Below, piece by piece: positions 2,399 through 5,299 of a DNA stretch of 5,299 nt. Location of the stretch: the NCBI GenBank assembly GCA_021157815.1, contig JAGGVT010000109.1:1-5299 (forward strand), given 5' to 3'. The translations under genes and the position numbers were made by a program. The notes below the pieces were generated by a model that saw only the letters and a list, made by a program, of their open reading frames with translations, had not been told where the DNA came from and made no database searches. Origin of the DNA: a bacterium (lineage in GTDB: Bacteria > JAJVIF01 > JAGGVT01). Each line of letters begins with the position of its first letter. The stretch's first letter is position 1.

Positions 2399-2427
2399 CT
2401 GTGAATATTTAGCCCGGGAGATTCGGC

Positions 2428-2504
2428 ACCCTTGCCGGAAAGTAGGATGCATCAGCACCCCTATTTGGAAAACGGGGGGGCTTATGCTCCCTACCGGCAA
2501 GGGT
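2428..2504. repeat. Long interrupted hairpin at the left end of the element
   Basis: ACCCTTGCCGG (2428-2438) pairs perfectly with CCGGCAAGGGT (2494-2504). Pairing can continue inward through TAGG/CCTA (2443-2446 with 2490-2493), GCAT/ATGC (2449-2452 with 2484-2487) and CCCC with the G7 run (2458-2461 with 2474-2480). The left base also forms a local CGGCA-CCCT-TGCCG hairpin (2424-2437). The right inverted end has no equivalent insert, so this hairpin may be a separate insertion. Confidence 0.7.
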
Positions 2505-2505
2505 A

Positions 2506-2518
2506 GGGCTGTTGAAAA
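2506..2518 (+). repeat. GGGCTGTTGAAAA motif, copy 2
   Basis: The plus strand reads GGGCTGTTGAAAA directly after the hairpin 2428-2504. It is inverted relative to the copy at 2850-2864, matching the inverted ends of the element. Confidence 0.6.
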
Positions 2519-2533
2519 GGGTGTATTTTTACC

Positions 2534-2578
2534 GGTGTCAGACACCTTGATAATGGTATTGTCAAGGTGTCTGACACC
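2534..2578. repeat. Near-perfect inverted repeat built on GGTGTCTGACACC
   Basis: GGTGTCAGACACCTTGA (2534-2550) is the exact reverse complement of TCAAGGTGTCTGACACC (2562-2578). On the plus strand the stem continues through a T-G wobble and AAT/ATT to a GGT triloop (2555-2557), giving 21 base pairs with three loop bases. Each arm contains its own 13-base palindrome. No T-tract follows on either strand, so it is not an intrinsic terminator. From memory, GTGTCAGACACC palindromes recur near REP-associated Y1 transposase loci in other bacteria; that link was not checked here. Confidence 0.85.
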
Positions 2579-2697
2579 TATATCCCAAGTAAATTTCAAA
2601 TGCCATATACAGTAAAAATTGTCTACCAGTCTGTTCATGCCCCACAGCATCATTGTGCAATTTATATGAAAGAGTCCGACCCCCTACATTAGGAGAC

Positions 2698-2714
2698 TCA
2701 AGGTGTCTGACACC
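2698..2714 (+). repeat. Third copy of the 17-base TCAAGGTGTCTGACACC repeat
   Basis: The sequence is identical over 17 bases to 2562-2578, in direct orientation, 136 bases further on. A related palindromic core, AAGAGTCCGACCCC (2670-2683), lies just upstream and shares the GTCYGAC centre. The T-rich GACTTTTCTT that follows could suggest a terminator, but there is no plus-strand gene for it to end. Confidence 0.75.
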
Positions 2715-2751
2715 GACTTTTCTTAAAAAATATGAATCCCGATTTTACCGA

Positions 2752-2819
2752 AATTTACGGAAAAAACGGATTCAAATCGAACACGATATGGAACCGTTTC
2801 TCAATCCCTTCCGTAAATT
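2752..2819. repeat. Three-tier stem structure inside the element
   Basis: AATTTACGGAA (2752-2762) and TTCCGTAAATT (2809-2819) pair perfectly over 11 bp. Inside, AAACGG-(A)-TTC (2764-2773) pairs with GAACCGTTT (2791-2799) with one bulged A. At the tip, ATCG (2776-2779) pairs with CGAT (2784-2787) around an AACA loop. A competing stem joins TGAATCC (2733-2739) to GGATTCA (2768-2774). No coding sense was found here. A folded single-strand transposition substrate or a structured RNA would both fit. Confidence 0.65.
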
Positions 2820-2849
2820 AGTGCCAAGTATCAATTTACAATTTGATGC

Positions 2850-2864
2850 TTTTTCAACAGTCCC
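2850..2864 (-). repeat. GGGACTGTTGAAAAA motif, copy 3
   Basis: The minus strand reads GGGACTGTTGAAAAA. It shares its first G with the inner edge of the right terminal repeat and is inverted relative to copy 2. Confidence 0.6.
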
Positions 2865-2910
2865 AAGGATGCCGACACTCCCGGGAGGGGGGATTCTTAA
2901 TGTATAAATG

Positions 2911-2967: not shown

Positions 2968-5299
2968 TTAATCCTCGAAATTCCAGTCGCCGCCGGGACC
3001 GCCGTAGCAGCCGATGTCGTTCTGGGAGCCGTCATAGTCATTGTAAGCAGCATCAGGATCACCAGCATCAATACACGGTGAACTCGCCTGCAGATGATGT
3101 CCATTTTCATATAGCGGGTCTAAACCGTAATCATCCAGAGGATCGCCCGGATTGATGCAGTTCGCGCCTTCGGTTATATCACCGTAGAAACGATAATCAC
3201 TATAGTATTCCAGATAAATAGGATTACCCCAGAGTTTCAGAATGTTCCAAACATTGCAATAATCAGCAACCGGACTTGTATTCCCACTGCCGATTATACC
3301 CCTGGAACAACCATTAATAAAATCGAACGCGGAACCAAATAGATTTGAAATAACAGTATTAATGATCTGGGGCGAGATGCTGTTTGCAATATGAACTCCT
3401 CTTACATTGGCTGGAGCAGTACAATTACCTAATGTACACCATTCAATCTGATCAACTGTGTTATTTGCAACTACAATACTATCACATTCGGCAGCGTATA
3501 TTGCCGTAACAGTACCAAAGTCAGCCGGAATAGAGCTGTCGCAGAAAATGATATTATTCACTTTTGCGTTATCACAATTGCTAAGATAAATACCGTAGCC
3601 GGGTTTCCATCCTTGATACTCAGTCTCAGCCAGATGGTCATGAAAGTAGATGTGGGATATTTGCACATTGTCTGAATTCTCGAAGTGTATTATGCGCACC
3701 TGTTCATGCCAACCACCAGTATTACCATGCTCAGGCCCTCTTATATGATCAAACTCAAACCCGTCGATTTTCATGCCGGTTGCACCATCACCGAAAAAAC
3801 ATTCTGACATATACCAGCTTGAACCAACGTCCCGTCCTGATGGGCGATAATTGCGCATTGCAGGTGGAATTGAGTTTGAGTCATTAAGGCTGTAACCCTG
3901 AATGTGAAACCCGGTATGAGCTGATGTTAAATCAACTCGCTCCGGGTAATTCAGTTGACCACTACTGCCATCATCACCGCGAATCAGGAGAGTGGTTTCC
4001 GCGGGCGTTGTTACGCCAGCTACGCCATTGGCTATTGTGTCGAACGGATTAAAAGCATCTCCGGGACCAGCGCCCGTTCCGATTGCGCTGTCAACATAAA
4101 CGCCGGTTTTAAGAACTATTCCATCAACAAATGTAAATGTCGTAGAGTCACTGCCATTAATTCTAAGCACGGGATAATACGTTCCCAGAGCGGTTCCCGC
4201 CGGATAACCGGCAGTGTAAACCGGATAAGTCAGACCCTCGACTTCGTATGTGCCGTCGCCATCGATATCCCAATCGAACGTTAATGCATCAATTGAGCAG
4301 GAGGCATCGAAATCAATCAGCCATTCGGTCGGAACCGGATTATCAGCTGTGCCGTCAGGACCAATGCCATCAAAGTATTTGTGAATATCAACCGTAAAAC
4401 ACGCCTCGCCAGCCGCGCCCTCAACCGATGCCGTGAATAGCTGGAATGTAGCGAATTCAGGCAAATTGAAGTGTTCGAGCAGAATTCCATCGGGTGAGTC
4501 GATTATAAAATCCCTGTCTCCAATCGACCCCACAGCCCGCTCATCGGTTACTTTCACAAGCCCGAAATAATCGCCCTCTTCAAGCAGATTCTCATTTGCG
4601 ATTGCGAACGTGTAAACCAGAGGATCATCGGGAGTTCCCGCACCGCTGTCCTCAGTTGTAACCGATTGAAGAGCGCTGTTCATGCCGGGAATCTCGACTG
4701 AAACGTTTGAGACCTCTGATGCGGCATAGATATCAGTCGGATTTACCAGTTCAGAATCGACATTCGCGCCAATCTGCCAGTCGTAAACCTCAACTACGAC
4801 ATCCCGAGTCGTTATGCCATCACCCGCGGGCCAGGATTCAGCCGGTGGAGTAACATCCACTTTCCATGCTGCTTTGCGGTTGAACTCGGGGTTGTAATAT
4901 TCGGGAATAAGCCTGTCCGGTTTTTTTGCGCTCCAGCCATAACCCATGGTTAAATACAGATCAAAATTCAAATCACCGGATGCCAGGTTGAAAGTGGCAT
5001 CGAATTCAATGTCTTTCATTCCCATCTCGAATTTATTGTATGAGCTTGTTCCACCGATGCTGTCATCAATAATAAGGAAATATGGGAGAGCCGCGCTATC
5101 CTCGATTACTTCATTTAGTTCAGTAGTGTAGCCGTCAGTGCCAACGCAGAAACCAGTGTATGCGCTTGCACTAGTCTGGCTGTAGGTTGATGCGACAGCT
5201 TCCTGCGGCGCGATTACCATCGCGAGGTCGAATACATCCAAATCAAGGCGATTTATCGCTGTTGGCGGTTTTAGAATATCGCCTTTTTCAAATGGATGG
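2968..5299 (-). CDS. Large secreted PKD and parallel beta-helix protein, 5' end cut by the window
   Basis: The frame stays open to the right edge, giving 776 visible codons; the true start and any signal peptide lie outside. A TTG at 5241 in this frame is internal, since coding sense continues upstream (HPFEKGDILKPPTAINRLD). Counting from that TTG as residue 1, residues about 65-280 are beta-sandwich-like and include EVYDWQ (151-156) and the AIANENLLEEGDYFGL block (213-228) shared with the lipoprotein. Residues about 305-376 are PKD-like, with FDWDIDGDGTYE at 322-333 as a probable calcium-type loop. From 381 (VYVDSAIGTG...FNPFDTIANGV) to about 680 is a right-handed parallel beta-helix with recurring coils such as MKIDGFEFDHI, NVQISHIYFHD, AKVNNIIF and IVVANNTVD. 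The end, SPCIDAGDPDAAYNDYDGSQ then NDIGCYGGPGG (721-751), is a familiar tail of such proteins. No sorting anchor follows. Beta-helices include pectate-lyase-like enzymes and adhesins; no catalytic site was recognised, so the substrate is unknown. Confidence 0.92.
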   Translation of the reverse strand, partial: HPFEKGDILKPPTAINRLDLDVFDLAMVIAPQEAVASTYSQTSASAYTGFCVGTDGYTTELNEVIEDSAALPYFLIIDDSIGGTSSYNKFEMGMKDIEFDATFNLASGDLNFDLYLTMGYGWSAKKPDRLIPEYYNPEFNRKAAWKVDVTPPAESWPAGDGITTRDVVVEVYDWQIGANVDSELVNPTDIYAASEVSNVSVEIPGMNSALQSVTTEDSGAGTPDDPLVYTFAIANENLLEEGDYFGLVKVTDERAVGSIGDRDFIIDSPDGILLEHFNLPEFATFQLFTASVEGAAGEACFTVDIHKYFDGIGPDGTADNPVPTEWLIDFDASCSIDALTFDWDIDGDGTYEVEGLTYPVYTAGYPAGTALGTYYPVLRINGSDSTTFTFVDGIVLKTGVYVDSAIGTGAGPGDAFNPFDTIANGVAGVTTPAETTLLIRGDDGSSGQLNYPERVDLTSAHTGFHIQGYSLNDSNSIPPAMRNYRPSGRDVGSSWYMSECFFGDGATGMKIDGFEFDHIRGPEHGNTGGWHEQVRIIHFENSDNVQISHIYFHDHLAETEYQGWKPGYGIYLSNCDNAKVNNIIFCDSSIPADFGTVTAIYAAECDSIVVANNTVDQIEWCTLGNCTAPANVRGVHIANSISPQIINTVISNLFGSAFDFINGCSRGIIGSGNTSPVADYCNVWNILKLWGNPIYLEYYSDYRFYGDITEGANCINPGDPLDDYGLDPLYENGHHLQASSPCIDAGDPDAAYNDYDGSQNDIGCYGGPGGDWNFED

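Follow-up and report, generated by a model that had tools for sequence, protein, structure and literature searches.

The spacer at the centre of the window, a bacterial DNA stretch of 5,299 nucleotides that constitutes an entire contig (C153) of a draft genome (3.2 Mb, 221 contigs), consists, with very little doubt, of three nested repeat families, all of them multi-copy in their own right in the same genome. A MITE-type element with IS1182-type ends interrupts a palindromic repeat (labeled A), and itself encloses a REP-pair element (labeled B). This confidence applies to the nesting and to the identity of the layers; whether the insertion target was read as a structure is graded separately below. 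As repeat stacking goes, the nest is ordinary. The part worth following is a hairpin-apex rule with variable duplication length, found for the MITE family, which provides a natural data set on structure versus sequence choice by some IS1182-type transposases. Variation in duplication length from one hairpin to the next is hard to reconcile with a fixed cutting stagger.

Repeat A and the element inserted into it

The spacer is flanked by two minus-strand genes (265–2331 and 2968–5241), one with a lipoprotein-like signal, and neither matches a Pfam family at E 0.001. No open reading frame longer than 87 amino acids is listed in the spacer, and a search of known RNA families returned no Rfam match in the window. 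The original prediction treated 2413–2885 as a single transposase-less element, and several of its descriptive features are accurate. The 22-bp imperfect inverted ends are present, with 2413–2434 (CCCGGGAGATTCGGCACCCTTG) identical to the reverse complement of 2864–2885 (CCCGGGAGTGTCGGCATCCTTG) at 19 of 22 positions, as are the inverted GGG(A)CTGTTGAAAA motifs located just inside them (2505–2519 and 2850–2864, 12 of 15 identical). The interior is indeed rich in strong hairpins: as single-stranded DNA, 2413–2885 folds at −100.8 kcal/mol, compared to −53.9 ± 4.6 for shuffled sequences (z −10.2).

The stretch is, however, not a single mobile unit ending at 2413 and 2885. Searching the own genome with this stretch gave 58 matches, and the query is spanned only by the window itself. 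The remaining matches sort into classes, corresponding to A (query 1–50 or 1–92, at 20 or more places), to B (query ∼94/115 to 303–423, ∼17 copies), and to a short right-end piece. Copies other than the window's end at inner boundaries, the very outcome that the original prediction had set against itself, and 39 other genomes, three of them from the same class, contain no match to the 473-bp stretch. The layers are independent: the genome contains no further full copy, whereas A, B and the MITE ends all occur separately in it.

The fetched copies show that A is a ∼105-bp palindromic repeat (CCCGGGAGATTCGGCACCCTTGCCGG ... CCGGCAAGGRTGCCGACACTCCCGG) with further hairpins within; seven copies are complete and uninterrupted, and several others are half units. 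In the window, its left arm and center (CCCGGGAGATTCGGCACCCTTGCCGG...CCGGC) occupy 2413–2498 on the plus strand, and the remaining right arm (GCCGACACTCCCGGG) is found at 2871–2885, on the same strand. When 2505–2870 is removed, the joined flanks are collinear from end to end with all seven intact copies, with 84–90 of 118–123 letters identical, although these copies are paralogues and not orthologous empty sites. What looked like 22-bp inverted ends are thus the stem arms of A.

The spacer does contain an element that has inverted ends and no transposase, as originally proposed, but it is delimited by the inner motifs. It spans 360 bp (2505–2864), with a left terminal inverted repeat (TIR) AGGGCTGTTGAAAAG (2505–2519, plus strand) and a right TIR GGGACTGTTGAAAAA (2850–2864, minus strand), the latter an exact match to the family end used for searching. 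It possesses no transposase gene of its own among reading frames above the limit of 87 amino acids given above. Its ends are bordered by a direct target duplication with one mismatch, AAGGGT at 2499–2504 and AAGGAT at 2865–2870 (both plus strand). In the intact A repeat, AAGGGT occurs once in the right arm, at the apex of a CGGC-AAGGGT-GCCG mini-hairpin whose stem is only 4–5 bp long. The same point is used in other A-type copies: one (L029, on C193) carries a different MITE, of 165 bp, between AAGGGT and AAGTGT, and a third (L017, on C43) has a MITE end at this hexamer. With one mismatch between its hexamers and three among the 15 positions of its TIRs, this MITE copy is an old one. No second complete 360-bp copy with the same interior between both ends was found, while the 130/131-bp family does have such copies; 2505–2864 is therefore filed as an element with family ends, rather than as a typical copy.

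Element B and the order of the layers

Element B (2528–2750, plus strand) begins 8 nt inside the left TIR of the MITE, with TTTACCGG, and TTTACCG occurs again close to its right end; in the longest copies, homology extends to ∼2835. It includes an inverted REP pair, GGTGTCAGACACCTTGATAAT/ATTGTCAAGGTGTCTGACACC (2534–2578, plus strand), with 21-bp arms and a 3-nt gap, and a third REP unit, TCAAGGTGTCTGACACCG (2698–2715, plus strand). The pair alone (2526–2583) has a folding z of −9.0. The start motif is present at 14 places exactly, and at 19 with one mismatch. In the aligned copies there is a sharp common left edge, TTTACCGGTGTCAGA, preceded by unrelated DNA in most of them, and a second TTTACCG past the last REP, with variable right edges. 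The REP-like palindromes, originally assigned to the same element as the outer ends, constitute a separate, third family that has boundaries and copies of its own.

Many B copies, apparently extragenic, contain the inverted REP pair, as expected for a REPIN. At one locus (L011), a RAYT (Y1 transposase) gene at 1192–1869 has a B copy just upstream and one more REP at its 3′ end, and matches the profile NF047646 (E 6e-20; 71.6 bits, below the 80-bit cut-off). B resembles known REPIN/RAYT systems, in which an inverted REP pair is multi-copy and the RAYT gene is flanked by the same REP (PMC3116915, PMC2817692), and was presumably moved by this type of Y1/HUH transposase. Its REP foot, however, is TTTACC (TTTACCGG in the aligned copies) and lacks the GTAG or CGTC tag by which the two large superfamilies of REPs are marked (PMC3733652). 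I also considered A as the cognate REP of the RAYT gene on C151. That gene is directly followed by half an A copy, but a different repeat, GTACCCGGTACGAAT, also flanks it, and the assignment is not claimed.

Repeat A, a REPIN-like palindrome, is the oldest layer. The MITE-type element then entered the mini-hairpin apex in its right arm, duplicating the apex hexamer, and B forms the third layer. The order of the last two steps may be the reverse, the MITE already containing B when it inserted into A. A B copy elsewhere (L040, on C1) has a clear MITE left end in the same place, with no right end nearby, so the combination of MITE and B may already have been moved or copied earlier. Other copies of B are found within A repeats or abutting them (L043, L036), showing that the repeat families cluster.

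Two other accounts of the spacer have to be weighed. Mobilization of 2413–2885 as one composite element, through its outer ends, could draw on their 19 of 22 matching positions and on the existence of several A copies. I regard it as extremely improbable, and have rejected a single element with these boundaries on the strength of the genome copies and the seven intact A repeats: no second copy combines both boundaries with the interior, A occurs seven times without that interior and pieces of the interior occur without A, and no direct duplication is apparent outside 2413 and 2885. The apparent nesting and mixed flanks could also be assembly artefacts of a fragmented metagenome bin, since several of the 221 contigs end inside MITE copies and some of these copies, such as L089, have mismatched flanks. 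This is very unlikely, as the hexamer at the junction of A and the MITE is seen again on other contigs (C193 and C43), and the window junctions obey the same rule as dozens of others.

The MITE family and the source of its ends

The end motif GGGACTGTTGAAAAA, allowing up to two mismatches, occurs 150 + 156 times in the genome (∼306), against 6 + 2 (8) for the reversed control. Most of the examined copies are 130 or 131 bp long, and some are 165, 190, 226 or 453 bp. A second member is present in the window, outside the nest: positions 1–143 are the right part of a MITE of the 190-bp type, by eye almost identical in sequence to the 190-bp MITE at L076:805–994, and are followed by ATCCTG. The contig starts inside this copy, and several other contigs of the genome also start or end in MITE copies.

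A transposase-carrying relative, which the original prediction had suggested looking for, is present in the same genome as a relic. A search with DDE_Tnp_1_6 identified a 995-bp locus (C90:4771–5765) at which fragments of a transposase gene are enclosed by GGGGCTGTTGAAAAA and GGGGCTGTTGAAATA, TIRs that it has in common with 2505–2864. Both fragments match the IS1182-family transposase (NCBIfam NF033551; E 1.3e-32 and 1.5e-13), and neither reaches the full-length cut-off, which is to be expected when a gene is broken. Another relic (on C56) shares 90% identity with that of C90 across the first fragment, and its left end is of the same type. This MAG yielded no intact transposase carrying these ends. 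The MITE was presumably moved in trans by a DDE transposase of the IS1182 family, whose genes with these ends would now persist only as relics. An intact IS1182 gene in a genome of the same class (L141 of G001, encoding 476 amino acids) was considered as the mobiliser and set aside, as a different end, GAGACTGTCTCA, surrounds it (by eye). That gene is apparently also located beside a REP loop, TGGAA.

Hairpin apices as insertion sites

Among 33 sites in the own genome, 23 have exact direct duplications, which are not uniform in length: 15 are of 4 nt (GAAA/TTTC), seven of 5 nt (ATCCT/ATCTT) and one of 6 nt (GTAGCC). On average, 5.4 of the 6 flanking positions on each side are paired, compared to 1.5 at random positions. 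The palindrome axis, sought independently of the duplication and with one mismatch allowed in the latter, falls uniquely at the duplication center in 25 of 29 sites, where 1.2 would be expected; at the window's own site it ties with one other axis. Duplication length varies within subfamilies, with the 131-bp MITEs showing 4 and 5 nt and a one-mismatch 6-nt case, and the 130-bp MITEs 4 and 6 nt. Only GAAA is plainly a loop; the outer bases of ATCCT, GTAGCC and AAGGGT can pair, so that the duplication corresponds to the apex including one possible closing pair. In genomes labelled as Planctomycetes, Armatimonadota, Deltaproteobacteria, WOR-3 and others, the same end pattern is found, mostly with 5-nt duplications and often at REP-like hairpins, although the axis is less often centered in these genomes (uniquely at 12 of 29 sites, and at 16 when ties are counted).

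One tentative reading, for which I would give nearly even chances, is that this IS1182-family DDE transposase picks DNA by its shape, whatever the sequence, and cuts symmetrically around the apex. It would join the 3′ ends of the element on either side of the apex of a hairpin or cruciform, at equal distances from the dyad, and gap repair would then duplicate the apex only, yielding 4, 5 or 6 nt depending on the target. The duplication would follow the palindrome center and have no fixed length, and REPs would become landing pads on which repeats stack. Alternatively, the transposase may recognize sequence motifs of REPs, the duplications being centered simply owing to the palindromic nature of REPs; such a reading would compete with the mechanism and not with the nesting. 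This is a possibility that I take seriously while leaning away from it. Most sites in this genome belong to two REP families (loops GAAA and ATCCT), and other insertion sequences do hit one point of a REP with a fixed duplication (PMC1525189). Yet at least five different hairpin sequences are used in this genome, other REP families are used in other phyla, and one and the same MITE subfamily gives rise to different duplication lengths, all of which argue against recognition of REP sequence.

Comparison with known systems points to both similarities and differences. IS1272, of the IS1182 family, targets hairpins, and reported insertions delete these and leave no duplication (PMC5678879, PMC4923244). 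IS1272 and TnSha1 have in common with the MITE family described here the transposase family (NF033551) and a preference for inverted repeats or hairpins with little sequence conservation, but their insertions remove all or part of the hairpin with no duplication, whereas the MITE sites keep the arms and duplicate the apex (PMC5678879, PMC4923244). A hypothetical ‘pathway c’ was drawn for IS1272, in which the element ends join at the loop and the loop alone is duplicated (PMC5678879), and the own-genome MITE sites look like its outcome. Among the papers searched, none reports IS1182 MITEs in hairpins. ISRm22, ISPsy8, ISPpu9/10 and IS1397 also insert into REP palindromes, ISPsy8 and ISRm22 at the symmetry axis (PMC1525189). 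These REP-targeting elements each have a fixed duplication (for instance 3 bp for ISPsy8 and 6 bp for ISRm22) and one type of REP, while the MITE family has duplications of 4–6 nt and several hairpin types.

Two further kinds of site were observed. In two MITE copies (L089:1501–1631 and L094:1501–1631), the flanks apparently come from different hairpin families, through recombination between copies or misassembly; mixed flanks in some copies of REP-targeting insertion sequences have been read as recombination between copies (PMC1525189). At six other loci (L060, L075:140–365, L079, L112, L137 and L140), the MITE ends are flanked by inverted instead of direct apex copies (GAAA/TTTC, GAAC/GTTC, TAAC/GTTA, ACAGT/ACTGT), forming a longer palindrome. 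These may have arisen by template switching that perfects imperfect palindromes (quasi-palindrome correction), or by recombination between MITEs.
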